DNA from: Methanocella sp. PtaU1.Bin125
GTDB taxonomy: Archaea; Halobacteriota; Methanocellia; Methanocellales; Methanocellaceae
Length of the DNA stretch: 32,921 bases
Assembly (NCBI GenBank): GCA_002067315.1
Contig: MVRA01000091.1
Span: forward strand, 1 to 32,921
Direction of reading: 5' to 3'
Part shown: positions 12,017-27,258 of the stretch, piece after piece
Layout of the letters: every line of letters starts with the position of its first letter
Numbering within the stretch: position 1 is the stretch's first letter
Program-made: the position numbers and the translations under genes
The notes under the pieces: model-generated
What the model was told of the DNA's origin: nothing
Seen by the model: only the letters and a program-made list of their open reading frames with translations
The model's database searches: none

Positions 12017-12160
12017 GGTCTCTCTAATCTCAATTTCTAAGTCACGATGAGATATAAAGCATCCGGCTGCTCCGGGGGACAAGGAGCGGCTTCCGAAGGA
12101 ACCACCGGGGTCGGCGATTGCGGCGGTCGTTGACAGGCTGTAGCGACCGGGGATAAGGGC

Positions 12161-12275
12161 AGCCTGCGCTGCGGTCGCGCGCGCGTGCACATGCTCCGGC
12201 CGGGCATACAAAGGCAGCCCTGCCCGTTTTTCGTCTTTATTACCTGACCAGAACCCCGGTCACCGACTGACTTAC
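12161..12275. repeat. Dispersed intergenic repeat, copy 2
   Basis: It begins AGCCTGCGC and continues with a run of CG steps, CATGCTC.GGCCG..CAT, CAGCCCTG, GTTT.TC.TC and CCTGACCAGAACCCCGGTCA.CGACT. It aligns with 12483-12590 about 325 bases away, and its second half aligns with 1-102. No coding frame is supported in 12037-12781, which consists mainly of these repeats. Confidence 0.5.
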
Positions 12276-19358: not shown

Positions 19359-22058
19359 TTGTACTGCGACAGGACGACTGAAGAGGTTTTCCGCGAACTA
19401 AAGACCGGACACTCGGGGCTGTCCCCCGACGAGGTCGCAAAGCGGCTGCAGGAGCATGGCCCCAACGCGCTGGAAGCCGAAAAAAGGCTGAACCTGTTCA
19501 AGCTCATCCTGGACCAGTTCACAGACCCTCTTATCTATATCCTGATCATCGCAGCCGCTATCACCGCGTTCCTGCAGGACTGGGTGGATACGGGTGTCAT
19601 ATTGCTGGTCATTGTCATCAACGGCGTCATAGGCTTCTTCCAGGAGCTTAAAGCGGAGCGGGCCATCAGCGCGCTCAAGTCGCTCGCCGCTGCAAAGGCC
19701 ACGGTCGTGCGGAACGGCCACGTGCAGGAGATCAACAGCGAGGGGCTCGTGCCGGGCGACGTCGTGCTGCTGGCCTCGGGCAGCCGGGTGCCGGCGGACC
19801 TGCGGCTGATCGAGGTGATCCGGCTGGAGGTCGACGAGTCGATGCTCACCGGCGAATCCGTGTCCGTCCGGAAGACCACGGACGTCTCGCCGAAGCCCTG
19901 CATATCCCCGGGGGACGGGGTCAACATCGCGTTCATGGGCACGCTGGCCCTCGCGGGCCGGGCGACGGGCATCGTCGTCGCGACCGGCCTCAAGACCCAG
20001 CTCGGGCAAATCTCGCACGAGGTGGCCGGCGTACGGTCGGCGGCCACGCCGCTGCAGGAAAAGCTGTCCCGCCTCAGCCGGCAGATCGGCCTGGTCATCG
20101 TGGGCATCTCCGCGCTGGTCGTCGTGCTGGGGATACTGATCGGCGAGACGCTGTACGAGATGCTCCTCACCGGGATCGCCCTGGCCGTCGGGGCCATACC
20201 CGAAGGCCTGCCCATCGTGGTCACCATCACGCTGGCCATCGGCGTGAAGCGAATGGCCGATCGCAACGCCATCGTGCGCCGGCTGCCCGCGGTGGAGACG
20301 CTCGGCAGCACCACTGTGATCGCCTCGGACAAGACGGGCACGATGACGCGCAACGAGATGACCGTCGTGCGCATCTTCGCCGGGCGGCGGTACTTCCGGC
20401 TGACTGGGACTGGATTTTCCCCTGACGGCAAGATATTGCCCGAGCAATGCGAGGGGGCCTGCCCGGCCCTGCAAATGTGCCTGCGAGCGGGGCTGCTGGC
20501 CAACGAGTCCAACCTGGAGCGGGAAGACGAAACGGACGAGTATCGCCCGGTGGGCGACCCGACCGAAGTCAGCCTCATCGTCTCGGCCATGAAGGGCGGC
20601 CTCGAAGAAGGGAAAGAGCGGGTCGACTACGAGTGGCAGGACGAGATACCGTTCGAGTCGGACCGGATGTACATGGCCACGCTGTACCGCGACGTGAACG
20701 GCGAGGGCAGCATCGCGTTCATCAAGGGGGCCCCGGACCGGGTAGCCGGGATGTGCGACCGGGAGCTCGATTCGGACAGCCGGGAGATCCCCATCGATAC
20801 GCGGGCGGTAGCTGAAGCCAACAATATCATGGGAGCCGAAGGGTTGCGGATGCTGGCAATGGCCTATAAGCGGTTTCCCCGGGGCACCGTGCATTTCGAG
20901 TCGGAAATGATCGGCAGCGGGTGCGTGTTTCTGGGCATCCAGGGCATGTACGACCCCCCGCGGGACGAGGTCTATGACGCCATCAAACAGGCCAGGACTT
21001 CGGGCATACGCGTGATCATGGTAACGGGTGATCACCGCGTGACGGCCGTCTCCATCGCCAGAAAACTGGGCATCGTCAGGAGCGACGACGACGCGGTGAT
21101 CACCGGCGAAGACATGGAGCGGCTGAACGACGATCAGCTATACGAGACTGTGGGCAGTGTCAACGTGTTCTCCCGCGTCTCCCCCCTGCATAAGCTACGG
21201 ATCGTACAGCAGCTGATCCGCCGGGGGGAAGTGGTCGCCGTCACGGGCGACGGCGTGAACGACACCCCGGCGCTCAAGGCCGCCCACATCGGCGTCGCCA
21301 TGGGCAAGAGCGGCACCGATGCGGCCAAGGAGACAGCCGAGATGGTGATCACCGACGACAACTTCGCCAGCATCTTCGCCGCGGTCAAGGAAGGCCGGGT
21401 GGTGTTCGCGAACATCCGCAAGGTCGTGCTGTTCCTGCTCGCGGGCGGCTTCGGGCAGGTGGCCCTGATCCTGCTGACCATCGTGCTGCGGCTGCCACTG
21501 CCGTTGCTCCCCGCGCAGATCATCTGGATGAACCTGGTGACCAACGGCCTGCAGGACGTGGCCATGGCCTTCGAGCCGGCAGAAAAAGGCATCGAGTACC
21601 AGCCTCCCCGGCCGAGAACCGAGCCGGTCATCTCCCGCCTGATCATGGAGCGCATCGTCATCATGGGAACTGTCCTTGCGCTGGGTACGCTCGGCGTTTT
21701 TTACTGGCAGATCAGTCAGGGGTCGGGCATCGATCATGCCCGTACCATGGCCCTGACCACGCTGGTGCTGTTCCAGCTGTTCAACATCTTCAACGCCCGT
21801 TCTGAGACGCGGTCCGCCTTCAAGATGAACCCGCTGACCAACCCGTTCCTGTTCTTCAGCATCGTGGCCTCTATCGTCGTCCAGGTGATCGCGATATACT
21901 GGCCGCCACTGGAGGCGATCTTCCGCCTGGTGCCCCTGAGCCTGAACGACTGGATGATCATCGTGCCGGTCTCTGTGTCGGTCATCGTCGTCGTCGAGAT
22001 CGAGAAGGCCGTCCGGAGAGCGCTGGGGCAGAGGGCTGCGAAGCCGGAGGCGGGCTAG
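19359..22058 (+). CDS. P-type cation-transporting ATPase (P2-like)
   Basis: About 899 residues from TTG 19359. The N-terminal cation-ATPase domain starts CDRTTEEVFRELKTGHSGLS. Canonical marks follow: actuator loop MLTGES, phosphorylation site SDKTGTMT near residue 324, VTGDHRVTAVSIA and hinge GDGVNDTPALKAAHIGVAMG. About ten membrane helices are present. In helix 4 VGAIPEGLP keeps the Glu of calcium pumps. In helices 5-6, AGGFGQV and NLVTNGLQD replace the SERCA Asn, Glu and Asp ligands (N768, E771, D800 from memory) with Gly, Gln and Asn, so calcium specificity is doubtful. The stop overlaps the convergent methyltransferase gene. It lies in the plasma membrane; the ion moved is unknown. Confidence 0.9.
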   Translation: MYCDRTTEEVFRELKTGHSGLSPDEVAKRLQEHGPNALEAEKRLNLFKLILDQFTDPLIYILIIAAAITAFLQDWVDTGVILLVIVINGVIGFFQELKAERAISALKSLAAAKATVVRNGHVQEINSEGLVPGDVVLLASGSRVPADLRLIEVIRLEVDESMLTGESVSVRKTTDVSPKPCISPGDGVNIAFMGTLALAGRATGIVVATGLKTQLGQISHEVAGVRSAATPLQEKLSRLSRQIGLVIVGISALVVVLGILIGETLYEMLLTGIALAVGAIPEGLPIVVTITLAIGVKRMADRNAIVRRLPAVETLGSTTVIASDKTGTMTRNEMTVVRIFAGRRYFRLTGTGFSPDGKILPEQCEGACPALQMCLRAGLLANESNLEREDETDEYRPVGDPTEVSLIVSAMKGGLEEGKERVDYEWQDEIPFESDRMYMATLYRDVNGEGSIAFIKGAPDRVAGMCDRELDSDSREIPIDTRAVAEANNIMGAEGLRMLAMAYKRFPRGTVHFESEMIGSGCVFLGIQGMYDPPRDEVYDAIKQARTSGIRVIMVTGDHRVTAVSIARKLGIVRSDDDAVITGEDMERLNDDQLYETVGSVNVFSRVSPLHKLRIVQQLIRRGEVVAVTGDGVNDTPALKAAHIGVAMGKSGTDAAKETAEMVITDDNFASIFAAVKEGRVVFANIRKVVLFLLAGGFGQVALILLTIVLRLPLPLLPAQIIWMNLVTNGLQDVAMAFEPAEKGIEYQPPRPRTEPVISRLIMERIVIMGTVLALGTLGVFYWQISQGSGIDHARTMALTTLVLFQLFNIFNARSETRSAFKMNPLTNPFLFFSIVASIVVQVIAIYWPPLEAIFRLVPLSLNDWMIIVPVSVSVIVVVEIEKAVRRALGQRAAKPEAG

Positions 22059-24034
22059 CGCCGGGCACTGTCCCGGGGCGGTACGGCGCCGCCGATGATA
22101 GATCGCTGCTCGTCGCCGATACCGTAGACACGGTAAACGATCTCGTCGGCCTCCCGCATCGACCGGAGCCTGGCCGCCGGGCCGGTGGCCGAGATCATTT
22201 CATCGGCAAGCTGCTCGACCTTGTAGATATCCCGGCGCCGGGGCTCGATCACCGGGAGGATGTCGAGCCACGTGGGCAGGTAGTGGTAATAGCCGCCCCC
22301 GATCTGTACGCCTTTGTATACGATGCTGTAGAGGAACGACATGAGATCGGAGTTCAGCAGCACGGTGAAATACTTCAGCGAAAAAGGCGAGCCATCCAGG
22401 CCTGGCGCGGCGATGCCGATAGGGTATACGTCCTTCGTCACGTACTCGCCTCTGCCGTCGTAAGCAGCGGTGATCCGGGGGGCGTGCTGGCAGAGGACGA
22501 TCTTCTCCTGCGTGAAATTAGACAGCGGCGGCAGCACGTTATGATGCGCCTTCAGCCGTGCCCGGTCATAGTCGATGTAGTACCCTTCCCATCGGAACCG
22601 GAACAGGCCGACCTCGTTCCTTTTCGCGTAGCTCCGGCCGCCCAGGTACTTCAGGACCGGCCCGGTCTCACCGTCGAACGACTGACGGACGAACCGTTCC
22701 CGCAGCCCTTTTTTATGAAAGGACACCGCCGACCGGAAGGCGACATAGCTGCCTATGGGCTTCCCCTGGCGGAAAAGGCGTTCGAGCAGGCCGGCGATGT
22801 CCCCTTTATCCGGCAGGCAGAACAATGTATGGTTATGCCCGACTGACCGGTACAGGCCCTGCGGGACTGCCGCCACGCTCCCGTTACCGGCCAGCCCTTC
22901 CAGGCTCGCGACCGAGTATCGGGTCTTTACCGTATGCCCCTTCGCGGGCGGGCGGTTATCGTACGCGAGCACCACCGGGTACACCATCGCCCGGTCGAAC
23001 ACGTCCATGCCCGAGAGGTCGGCCAGCTCTATCAGCGAGTAGTCGCGCAGAAGGGTGTCCCGCAGGGGCAGCGCGTACCTGGCCACGGTGAACTTATCGG
23101 GCAGAATCAGGCACACCCTGCCGCCTTCCGATACTAGGCGGTTACACTGGAGGATGAACGGGATGTACAGGTCGAAAGCGCCCTTGATCTCCGGCCAGCT
23201 GGCGAGGCACTTCTCTTTCATCCGGGCGGGCATCTTTTTCGCTTCCAGGTACGGGGGATTGCCGACCACGTAGTCGAAGCCGCTCCGGTATGCGCCCAGC
23301 CTGCGCTTGATGCAGGCCGCCGCGTCCACGCCCGGTTCCCCGCCACAATCGATCGAGTCGGCCTGAAAAACGTTGAACCGGATATCCCCCGTTCCGGCCA
23401 GGGCTTCCGGCCCGAGCTCGTTGAGCAGGGTGACGTACATGTTGATCCGGCAGATATCGCCTGCGACCCGGCTGATGTCCAGGCCATAGAAGCGGTCGAT
23501 GGCCTGCCGGAGCGACCTCACGTCGACCCCGCCCCGGGCGTTCAATTCCCTCACCACCTTCCGCATTCCCGCGACCAGGAACGCGCCCGTGCCGCAGGCG
23601 ATATCGATGAGCTTCCTGTCCGGGAGGCCTGTGCCCTTTTCGAGCTCCAGCAGGCCGATCATATAGTCGGCCACCGGCGGCGGGGTGTAGAACTCGCCCG
23701 CCCCTTTCCGGGTGCCGTTCGCACGGGCGGCGTCCTCGTAGAGGCGGCCCAGCACGTCGAACCGGCCCGGGTCGATCACGGCCCCGGGCGCGAGATGGCA
23801 GCGCCCGTCGATCCTGGCTCCCAGCATCCGCTCGTATTGCCGCCGGATGGCCTTGAGCGAGTAATCCCGGTGCTGTATGGCCAGGTTATTTTTAACGATA
23901 GCGAAACCGAGCTCGTGGAACCGGCGTGGAGCAAGGCCGTCCCCGGCCAGGCCTGTATAGCCCTCGCTACCTGTGTGTTTCAGGATTTCGAGCGTCGACG
24001 GGGGGCGGGCGGAAGACATGGCAGTCGCTGGCAT
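22055..24034 (-). CDS. Solitary N6-adenine DNA methyltransferase with TaqI-like specificity domain
   Basis: About 659 residues. The N-terminal half is an N6-adenine methyltransferase: GEFYTPPPVADYMI (motif X region), SAM-binding motif I DIACGTGAFL at about residues 144-153, FYGLDI, and catalytic NPPY at about 259-262. The C-terminal half, with YLGGRSYAKRN, KIVLCQHAPRI and YFTVLLNSDLMSFLYSI, resembles the TaqI-like target-recognition domain of type IIG and related enzymes. No PD-(D/E)xK motif is obvious at the N-terminus and no endonuclease gene is adjacent. It is therefore more likely an orphan methylase, or half of a split system, than a complete restriction enzyme. ATG 24034 sits about 20 bases from a TATATC-type box, implying a leaderless message. 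Confidence 0.88.
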   Translation of the reverse strand: MPATAMSSARPPSTLEILKHTGSEGYTGLAGDGLAPRRFHELGFAIVKNNLAIQHRDYSLKAIRRQYERMLGARIDGRCHLAPGAVIDPGRFDVLGRLYEDAARANGTRKGAGEFYTPPPVADYMIGLLELEKGTGLPDRKLIDIACGTGAFLVAGMRKVVRELNARGGVDVRSLRQAIDRFYGLDISRVAGDICRINMYVTLLNELGPEALAGTGDIRFNVFQADSIDCGGEPGVDAAACIKRRLGAYRSGFDYVVGNPPYLEAKKMPARMKEKCLASWPEIKGAFDLYIPFILQCNRLVSEGGRVCLILPDKFTVARYALPLRDTLLRDYSLIELADLSGMDVFDRAMVYPVVLAYDNRPPAKGHTVKTRYSVASLEGLAGNGSVAAVPQGLYRSVGHNHTLFCLPDKGDIAGLLERLFRQGKPIGSYVAFRSAVSFHKKGLRERFVRQSFDGETGPVLKYLGGRSYAKRNEVGLFRFRWEGYYIDYDRARLKAHHNVLPPLSNFTQEKIVLCQHAPRITAAYDGRGEYVTKDVYPIGIAAPGLDGSPFSLKYFTVLLNSDLMSFLYSIVYKGVQIGGGYYHYLPTWLDILPVIEPRRRDIYKVEQLADEMISATGPAARLRSMREADEIVYRVYGIGDEQRSIIGGAVPPRDSARR

Positions 24035-24279: not shown

Positions 24280-24469
24280 CAACGACACCTGTAGCGCTTG
24301 AAGATTATTTGGCTGACAGGGTATTTACCATTTGTCGTCTCGTCAGACGAGGAGGGGGGTGTGTGACAGGCCGGGCCTTTGATCGCGGGGGGCATGCCGG
24401 GCTCCCGATAAGTGACAATTCCGGGTCGATCTAAGAAGCCCCTCCGGGTCAGTCATGCGCTTGTGACCG

Positions 24470-24553
24470 CGACGGAGGTCGCTCGTGTTTCGACGGAGGT
24501 CGCTCGTGTTTCGACGGAGGTCGCTCGTGTTTCGACGGAGGTCGCTCGTATTA
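24470..24553. repeat. 21-bp tandem repeat, four copies
   Basis: The unit CGACGGAGGTCGCTCGTGTTT occurs at 24470, 24491, 24512 and 24533; the first three are identical and the last differs only at the end. Period 21 leaves frames open on both strands, giving heptad-like peptides (TEVARVS or NTSDLRR), but no start signal or family supports a gene. It lies in the gene-free stretch 24301-24756. Confidence 0.9.
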
Positions 24554-24615
24554 AAAGCCGCCGGATGCTCCTGGGGCCATTCAGAACCTTTTAGATTACT
24601 CAATAAAAGCGTACA

Positions 24616-24756: not shown

Positions 24757-24830
24757 CGGACTCGCCGCGATTTGAACGCGGGTCGCCGGGTCCGAAGCCC
24801 GGTAGGATGTCCTGGCTACCCCACGAGTCC
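24757..24830 (-). tRNA. tRNA-Arg (anticodon TCG)
   Basis: Reading the minus strand gives a complete cloverleaf. The 7-bp acceptor stem is GGACTCG/CGAGTCC with discriminator G. The D arm has AGCCAGGACA. The anticodon stem CCGGG/CCCGG encloses loop CTTCGGA with anticodon TCG, which reads CGA and possibly other CGN codons. The T arm is CCGCG-TTCAAAT-CGCGG. The variable loop is four bases. There is no intron, and CCA is not encoded. An AT-rich box (TTTTAATAC, minus strand) lies about 30-40 bases upstream. Confidence 0.95.
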
Positions 24831-25182: not shown

Positions 25183-26628
25183 ATGCCTTCTGATAAACTC
25201 AAAGAGATCACCGATCTCGTGAAGAAGCATAAGATCAAGTACGTTGACTACAAGTTCATCGACGTCCCGGGCACCTGGCAGCACAAGACGCACCCGATCG
25301 CCGAGCTCGACGAGGACGTGTTCAGGTACGGCACGGGCTTCGACGGGTCGAGCATCCGCGGGTTCCAGGGCATCGAGGAGAGCGACATGCTCCTGATGCC
25401 GGACGCAGAGACCGCCTTCGTGGACCCGTTCATCAGGGAGCCGACGCTGTCGCTGACGTGTGACGTCGCCGATCCGGACGGCATGAAGCCTTACCAGAAC
25501 GACCCCCGGTACATCGCGAAGAAAGCGGAGAAGTACCTGGCCGACTCGGGCATCGCCGACACCAGCTTCATGGGGCCGGAACTGGAGTTCTTCATCTTCG
25601 ACAACGTCTCGTTCGACGTCCTGAACCCGCACAAGGGCATGGGTTATTCCATCGACTCCAACGAAGGCATCTGGAACTGCAGCCAGAACAACGGCGTACC
25701 CAACCTCGGCCACCGGCCGCGGTTCAAGGAGGGCTATTTCCCGGTCTCTCCCACAGATACGCAAACGGACATCCGGAACGAGATGGTCGGCGTCATGAGC
25801 GACATCGGCATGAAGATCGAGCTGCACCACCACGAGGTCGCGACCGCCGGCCAGGCCGAGATCGGCATGCGGTTCGACCGGCTGCTGAAGATAGCCGACA
25901 ACACCATGAAGTACAAGTACGTCGTCAAGAACGTCGCCCACCGGAACGGGAAGACGGCCACGTTCATGCCGAAGCCCATGTTCGGCGACAACGGCAGCGG
26001 CATGCACACGCACCAGAGCCTGTGGAAGAATGGCAAGCCACTGTTCTTCGATAAGGACGGATACGGCCTGCTCAGCCAGACCGCGCTGTACTATATCGGC
26101 GGCCTGCTGATCCATGCTCCCGCGTTGCTCGCGATCTGCGCGCCGAGCACCAACTCCTACAAGCGGCTCGTGCCCGGTTACGAGGCGCCGGTGAACCTGG
26201 TGTTCTCCTGCCGGAACCGGAGTGCCGCCATCCGCATCCCGATGTACTCGGATAATCCGAAGACCAAGCGGATCGAGTTCCGGCCGCCCGACGCGACCTG
26301 CAACCCGTACCTGGCGTTCTCCGCCATGCTCATGGCCGGCCTCGACGGCATCAAGAACAAGATCGACCCGACGAAGAACGGCTTCGGCCCGATCAACAAA
26401 AACATCTACCACCTGCCGGATGCCGAGAAGGCGAAGATCAGGTCCGTGCCGTCCTCGCTCGACGAGTCGCTCGAAGCCCTCGAGAACGACCACAAGTTCC
26501 TCACCCAGGGCAAGGTGTTCACCGACAGCTTCATCGAGAACTGGATTGCCTACAAGCGGACGAACGAGGTCGACCCGGTCCGCATCAGGACGCACCCGTA
26601 CGAGATGTTCCTGTACTACGACGCGTAA
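25183..26628 (+). CDS. glnA: Glutamine synthetase type I
   Basis: It makes glutamine from glutamate, ammonia and ATP, the central nitrogen-assimilation step. The product is 481 residues, longer than the roughly 440 of most archaeal GSI-alpha enzymes. Motifs include FDGSSIRGFQGIEESDM, MGPELEFFIFD, the HHHEVATAGQAE block, FGDNGSGMHTHQSLW, NSYKRLVPGYEAPVNLVFS and NRSAAIRIP. NKNIYHLPDAEK places a Tyr at residue 409, matching the tyrosine that is adenylylated in bacterial GSI-beta enzymes. The overall sequence recalls cyanobacterial and proteobacterial GSI-beta, suggesting past transfer (inference). ATG 25183 follows GGAGG at 25171. It is monocistronic and controlled by the palindrome upstream. 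Confidence 0.97.
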   Translation: MPSDKLKEITDLVKKHKIKYVDYKFIDVPGTWQHKTHPIAELDEDVFRYGTGFDGSSIRGFQGIEESDMLLMPDAETAFVDPFIREPTLSLTCDVADPDGMKPYQNDPRYIAKKAEKYLADSGIADTSFMGPELEFFIFDNVSFDVLNPHKGMGYSIDSNEGIWNCSQNNGVPNLGHRPRFKEGYFPVSPTDTQTDIRNEMVGVMSDIGMKIELHHHEVATAGQAEIGMRFDRLLKIADNTMKYKYVVKNVAHRNGKTATFMPKPMFGDNGSGMHTHQSLWKNGKPLFFDKDGYGLLSQTALYYIGGLLIHAPALLAICAPSTNSYKRLVPGYEAPVNLVFSCRNRSAAIRIPMYSDNPKTKRIEFRPPDATCNPYLAFSAMLMAGLDGIKNKIDPTKNGFGPINKNIYHLPDAEKAKIRSVPSSLDESLEALENDHKFLTQGKVFTDSFIENWIAYKRTNEVDPVRIRTHPYEMFLYYDA

Positions 26629-26673
26629 AGTGGCAGACCATATCCTCCACCACTTTACTCTTTTTTTAATGTC
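26629..26673 (+). terminator. Probable glnA transcript end
   Basis: AGTGG just after the stop pairs with CCACT, followed by the T-run CTCTTTTTTTAA. The stem is short (5 bp), so the T-run is the main evidence, as archaeal termination often relies on T-tracts alone. Confidence 0.5.
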
Positions 26674-27079
26674 CGATAACCGTCGATACGTGTACGCTAT
26701 CTCCGTCGATATGGAGCATGCAATAGTGAAGAAATCTCAACCGACGACGTTTAAAGGTCATTTTTAGCGAACACAGGCCCGGCTGGCCCCGTAAAGAAGC
26801 CGGCATTGTCCAAATAAGCACTGGGGGAATGAACCTTTGCCTGCCGGACCTATAGTCGCATTTAAGGTCCGACGTAAGCCGAACCTAGCTATATACCCTG
26901 GTTTTGTGGAAATATTTGGGCAAGCGCTCACAATGGTGCCGCTTACAAAAATGTAATTACAGATTCCTAGGTAATAAAGTTTTTCACAATTTTTTCAAAT
27001 AAATTCATTTTAGTCCAAATAAAAATAGATTAATTATTAGATCACGGGCTCCCGGCCTAATATACTGGCAATATTAATA
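26674..27079. other. Gene-free, partly AT-rich region
   Basis: No coding frame is supported here. A CGGACC/GGTCCG hairpin lies at 26845-26871 and a GCCGGC-rich segment at about 26773-26802. From about 26925 to 27100 the base composition falls sharply to AT, unlike the rest of the window, with many A/T runs. Confidence 0.5.
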
Positions 27080-27088
27080 AAAGACAAA

Positions 27089-27112
27089 AATAAATTTGCC
27101 GCCTTAGCGGCA
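27089..27112 (-). terminator. Terminator for the IscA/HesB-like gene and hairpin array
   Basis: On the minus strand a 6-bp stem TGCCGC-TAAG-GCGGCA is followed by AAATTTATTTTTG, a T-rich tract. It lies past the tandem hairpin array and would end the transcript carrying it. Confidence 0.6.
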
Positions 27113-27132
27113 GCTTTCGGATTTCCTCAATA

Positions 27133-27258
27133 ACATCCTTTCGGATGCCCTTAGTGACATCCTTTCGGATGCCTTTAGTGACATCCTTTCGGATGCCTTT
27201 AGTGGCATCCTTTCGGATGCCTTTAGTGGCATCTTTTCGGATGCCTTTAGTGGCATCC
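27133..27258 (-). repeat. 24-bp tandem repeat forming an array of GAAA-tetraloop hairpins
   Basis: Units begin at 27133, 27157, 27181, 27205, 27229 and (partial) 27253, each 24 bp. In minus-strand RNA each full unit folds as GGCATCC-GAAA-GGATGCC, a 7-bp stem closed by a GNRA tetraloop, with ACTAAA between hairpins. In some copies GGATGTC replaces GGATGCC, turning G-C into G:U and keeping the stem. The alternative GGATGCC-ACTAAA-GGCATCC is also possible. The last copy overlaps the final codons and stop of the IscA/HesB-like gene. Confidence 0.9.

Follow-up and report, generated by a model that had tools for sequence, protein, structure and literature searches.

Palindromic units of the REP/BIME kind lie behind genes and could shield mRNA 3' ends. 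In archaea, transcription terminates at a U-tract with the factor aCPSF1, and a hairpin is not strictly required (PMC8716108). In Haloferax volcanii, some of the termination sites have a hairpin immediately upstream, and one such hairpin terminated transcription in a reporter (59%) (PMC7237163). We analyzed a 32,921-nucleotide stretch of Methanocella sp. PtaU1.Bin125 DNA (the window; contig MVRA01000091.1), in which tandem hairpin units follow the end of a minus-strand gene for an IscA/HesB-like protein. Comparison with related genomes suggests, at somewhat better than even confidence, that this array is a young, lineage-specific minisatellite, formed by tandem duplication of a stop-spanning 3'-end hairpin and serving as a structured 3' UTR.

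The array and the gene end

TRF reported a repeat of period 24 at 27114-27258, with 6.0 copies and 92% matches, and alignment resolved six units (Table 1), in keeping with the original prediction of 24-bp units carrying a GAAA loop and an ACTAAA linker. U1 and U3 have the consensus GGATGCC ACTAAA GGCATCC GAAA; U2 carries G1A, U4 carries C6T, U5 carries C6T and A13G, and U6 is the most diverged, with seven changes. Gene-proximal units are near identical to one another and nearly match the coding copy, and gene-distal units are more diverged, a gradient that is expected if new copies arise beside the constrained coding copy and that favors tandem duplication. Arranged head to tail at one locus, with a unit in the 10-60 bp range, the array is a minisatellite. 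Its unit, which had been proposed for a search elsewhere in the genome, occurs at this single locus in the 3.24-Mb assembly, and none was found in viral contigs.

The IscA/HesB-like gene, the only PF01521 gene detected in the assembly, ends in ...GGC TGC AGC GGA TGC CAC TAA. The last 12 nt, GGA TGC CAC TAA (Gly-Cys-His-stop), constitute the first arm and loop of the unit, and a complementary 3' arm after the stop, followed by a GAAA spacer, completes the 24 bp; the first transcribed unit overlaps the last codons and the stop, just as had been claimed. The description of the array as growing out of this gene is likewise upheld, both by this composition of the unit, gene end plus complementary arm, and by the single-hairpin state of a relative described below. 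The hairpin at 27259-27238, which has its 5' arm in the last codons, its 3' arm past the stop and a stem of 8 bp, is a stop-spanning hairpin and the presumed seed of the array.

The T-rich tract expected beyond the array is present and is a candidate terminator: transcripts that end at archaeal U-tract terminators finish in a run of 4-7 U, and the tract holds the run TTTATTTTTGTCTTTT (written as DNA). The last hairpin before it is probably a relic unit, its homology to the unit being weak. AAATTTATTTTT comes after this terminal 6-bp hairpin, and the array comes after the stop-spanning one, so neither shows the bacterial-type order of a hairpin directly followed by a U-run. The convergent downstream neighbor, identified by Pfam as glutamine synthetase (glnA), has a stop-spanning hairpin of its own, so that the two genes have the same kind of 3' end within one shared intergenic region.

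Table 1 Features of the locus and of an unrelated dispersed element (window positions unless a locus is named)
Feature	Position	Strand	Basis
IscA/HesB-like A-type Fe-S carrier gene, 107 aa	27247..27570	-	Pfam PF01521 E=7e-11; translation
Gene-proximal stop-spanning hairpin CGGATGCC-ACTAAA-GGCATCCG, 8 bp, TAA in loop	27238..27259	-	Sequence; fold -14.1 kcal/mol
Six-unit array GGATGCC-ACTAAA-GGCATCC-GAAA	27115..27258	-	TRF; unit alignment
Units of the array	U1 27258-27235, U2 to 27211, U3 to 27187, U4 to 27163, U5 to 27139, U6 to 27115	-	
Diverged seventh hairpin GCTGCC-GCTAA-GGCGGC, 6 bp, last before U-tract	27098..27114	-	Sequence; fold
U-rich tract AAATTTATTTTTGTCTTTTATT, candidate archaeal terminator	27076..27097	-	Sequence; archaeal U-tract terminators (PMC8716108)
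glnA stop-spanning hairpin GTAAAGTGG...CCACTTTAC, then TCTTTTTTT	26625..26658	+	Sequence; fold
Glutamine synthetase gene (glnA)	25183-26628		Pfam
tRNA gene	24757-24830	-	
Eco57I/TaqI-like restriction-modification methylase gene	22055-24034	-	
Dispersed leader + hairpin-unit element	24425-24608	+	
Dispersed leader + hairpin-unit element, one unit	~12160-12180	-	
Dispersed leader + hairpin-unit element, other loci	L087:17344-17552, L115:3281-3511, L189, L190, L191, L192, L193		

Relatives, gene ends and other repeats

The array is absent from the orthologous place in all three other family members compared (G001, G002 and G003), orthology being supported by conserved neighbors: G001 shares glnA on the downstream side, whereas G002 and G003 share three genes on the upstream side. 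In the G003 ortholog (L012), a single, unrepeated 8-bp hairpin, CGGATGCC-ACTAGGCG-GGCATCCG, occupies the same place, with the stop codon in its loop and the U-run TAACTCCTTTTT after it. By our rough estimate, an 8-nt complement so near a stop would arise by chance at about 10 x 4^-8 per gene, which makes an accidental origin of the G003 hairpin unlikely, with the caveat that the coding arm is itself conserved. G001, of the same genus, is without a stop-spanning hairpin and has a different hairpin ~30 nt past the stop; G002 is without any clear stop-spanning hairpin. These two genomes speak against the reading, since they require that the seed was either ancestral, with two losses, or acquired on two occasions. 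The simplest history would be a single stop-spanning hairpin, followed by tandem duplication of the 24-bp unit containing it. The single-hairpin state in G003, the relatives without an array and the enrichment of such hairpins described next point to lineage-specific amplification of one stop-spanning hairpin.

As a separate observation, the G001 ortholog (L010) has a short tandem repeat right past its stop, just after 1815 (GTAAA, ~4 copies), and beyond it the hairpin GCAACTCC-GAA-GGAGTTGC, then T-rich sequence.

Gene ends were surveyed in samples of ~0.7 Mb of G000, the genome of the window, and ~0.4 Mb from each of the three relatives (G001-G003), with a downstream-swap null that replaced an earlier hairpin survey (loop of at most 16, within-gene control) judged too weak. 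Genes were called as greedy longest ORFs, so some coding and intergenic labels are wrong, and both arrays in the window were mislabeled coding. Among 966 gene ends of these four Methanocellaceae genomes, 37 had stop-spanning hairpins of at least 8 bp, as against 14.3 under the null. Such hairpins had TTTT close behind in 18 of the 966, as against a null mean of 3.2 and a maximum of 9 in 60 swaps. Furthermore, hairpins of at least 8 bp directly before T5 runs after genes numbered 17, summed over the four genomes, where ~2.7 were expected. The stop-spanning hairpin with a U-tract is a real minority class in Methanocellaceae, and this excess is unexpected for archaea. Among the orthologs L020-L023, which belong to a distant family within the phylum, some have hairpins near or across the stop, then long U-runs, as judged by eye and folding only.

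Short tandem arrays abound in G000, which favors tandem duplication as the origin of the gene-end array. They include an unrelated dispersed element, in which a G+C-rich leader ending in GCGCGCGTGTGACC (GTGACC) is followed by one to seven tandem 21-22 bp hairpin units of the form CNNC-GCAG-GNNG-CYCGTRTGTA; tandem amplification of short units thus appears to be a habit of this genome. From one locus of the dispersed element to another, both sides of the 4-bp stem change together (CAGC/GCTG, CAAC/GTTG, CGAC/GTCG); the leader pattern of the element matches 18 times in G000 but not at all in G001-G003. One copy lies in the window between the tRNA gene and the methylase gene, and its leader adjoins a copy, abutting 24425, of a second tandem family with a 23-bp unit (near GGGTCGATCTAAGGGACCCCTCC), which also occurs at L087:3951-4055 and L117:1-98. 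The dispersed element is perhaps more interesting than the gene-end array. We rejected the idea that hairpin minisatellites form one selected class genome-wide, since the consensus units of the many tandem arrays in G000 do not exceed shuffles in self-complementarity (Fisher p=0.18; p=0.013 in G001).

Folding and rival explanations

A 7-bp stem arose in 312 of 200,000 shuffles of the 24-nt unit. For the array as a whole, the folding energy is -65.4 kcal/mol, compared with -28.8 +/- 8.1 kcal/mol for column-permuted arrays, of which 0 of 300 folded as well, and the hairpins are therefore not a by-product of repetition. Each unit can form hairpins in two mutually exclusive registers, with an ACUAAA or a GAAA loop. 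With every local hairpin in place, the energy is -73.1 kcal/mol for the ACUAAA-loop register and -66.3 kcal/mol for the GAAA-loop register; longer-range pairings are mixed into the global minimum fold (-83.3 kcal/mol), and the favored register varies with the allowed span. The alternative GGATGCC-ACTAAA-GGCATCC fold foreseen in the original prediction is thus available to the RNA. The emphasis placed there on a GNRA tetraloop fared less well: the GAAA loop is present, but probably marks the wrong register, because the ACUAAA-loop register, with the stop codon in its loop, is the one shared with the G003 ortholog and is slightly more stable. For the same reasons the tetraloop more likely results from the tandem arrangement than from design. 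Any tandem row of this unit can pair in the GAAA-loop register as well, with no further change, and the "tetraloop" and the ACTAAA "linker" are probably a mere spacer and a copied stop codon, respectively.

Most likely, the array would act as a structured 3' UTR that leads into a U-tract terminator. The iscA-like mRNA would include it as its 3' UTR, with transcription ending in the U-tract, as is usual in archaea. This would place the hairpins at the mRNA 3' end, where one might suffice to define it or shield it against 3' exonucleases. Most published archaeal terminators need nothing beyond a U-tract, so that the hairpin may have no part in termination itself. Slippage or unequal exchange, which the hairpin would have promoted, may have produced the extra copies; these would be neutral or only mildly stabilizing.

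A multi-hairpin 3' UTR kept by selection, whether for mRNA stability, for insulation of the convergent glnA or for repeated protein binding, would fit a folding stronger than repetition alone explains, the 3' UTR position between convergent genes and the 94-96% of cells paired among array units. Changes between copies had been said to keep pairing, and their shift from G-C to G:U to argue for selection. The stem changes C6T and C7T indeed keep pairing as G:U (in U6, where G15A has also changed, C6T gives U-A), but G1A in U2 breaks the outer, closing pair in both registers and C16A in U6 breaks a further one. Moreover, covariation among units was no higher than in shuffles, 300 of 500 and 500 of 500 of which equaled or exceeded the observed value in the two registers, a comparison of low power with few independent changes, and the array is missing from the three relatives. 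At this power, selection on array structure is neither shown nor excluded; we consider the selected 3' UTR unlikely, and the array is a tidy case of a gene-end signal giving rise to a young repeat, and no evidence that an RNA device has been selected. Among the roles first suggested, a structured 3' UTR before the terminator is plausible, but repeated protein binding or a decoy found no evidence in their favor. The two registers, mutually exclusive and near in energy, with local folding choosing either by the allowed span, could also serve a ribosome-sensitive switch: a terminating ribosome would cover the first 5' arm, and the 3' arm thus released would find its partner in the following unit, in the GAAA-loop register, so that the whole array refolds. 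However, any tandem palindromic array has two registers without special design, the first GAAA-register hairpin is the very one broken by G1A, and no outcome is tied to the register change, all of which makes such a switch very improbable. Quite improbable, too, is the broader proposal that a class of Methanocellaceae genes uses hairpins of their own codons and stop, with U-tracts, as 3' ends, multiplied here so that two exclusive folds report translation termination and set mRNA stability.

At the other extreme, the array could be an untranscribed, purely neutral DNA repeat without an RNA-level role, as the numerous intergenic tandem arrays of the genome and the relatives without an array might suggest. 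We judge this improbable: the array starts inside the last codons, so that at least its first unit must be transcribed, and the orthologous single hairpin with its U-tract resembles a 3' end. That a known RNA element is present in disguise is hardly credible. HesB-like proteins are a known archaeal selenoprotein family and the archaeal SECIS sits in the 3' UTR (PMC9499178), but the gene has no in-frame UGA or internal stop, and a SECIS was rejected. An Rfam search near the array gave nothing above cut-off; a weak RsmY match over part of the array scored 18.7 bits against a gathering cut-off of 57, with the GGA triplets in stems, not loops, which disposes of a CsrA/Rsm-type sponge, and a CRISPR-like array was rejected as there are no spacers.

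Comparison with described systems

The array resembles REP/BIME elements in having palindromic units behind a gene, but its unit occupies one locus and is not dispersed over many intergenic regions, and REP/BIME identity was rejected. With prokaryotic minisatellites (VNTR) it shares head-to-tail 24-bp units of high identity, lineage specificity and a divergence gradient; unlike them, its unit is palindromic and contains a gene end and stop. Together with the single hairpin of G003, it illustrates that a tandem repeat in a 3' UTR can start from a gene-end signal of which coding sequence and the stop are part.

Bacterial intrinsic terminators likewise have a G+C-rich 7-8 bp hairpin near the stop, with a U-run after it as in L012; here, in contrast, the polymerase is archaeal and, in the window, ~140 nt of further hairpins separate the stop-spanning hairpin from the U-tract. 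The aCPSF1/FttA-dependent archaeal terminators have a similar U-rich tract downstream of the gene (PMC8716108), and a minority of 3' ends in Haloferax volcanii is likewise preceded by a hairpin (PMC7237163). Unlike in either, the hairpin of the array straddles the stop and is tandemly multiplied, and the terminator here is a candidate known from sequence. The wider and more useful point is that stop-spanning hairpins before U-tracts are significantly over-represented in Methanocellaceae, although archaeal terminators have been described as hairpin-independent.
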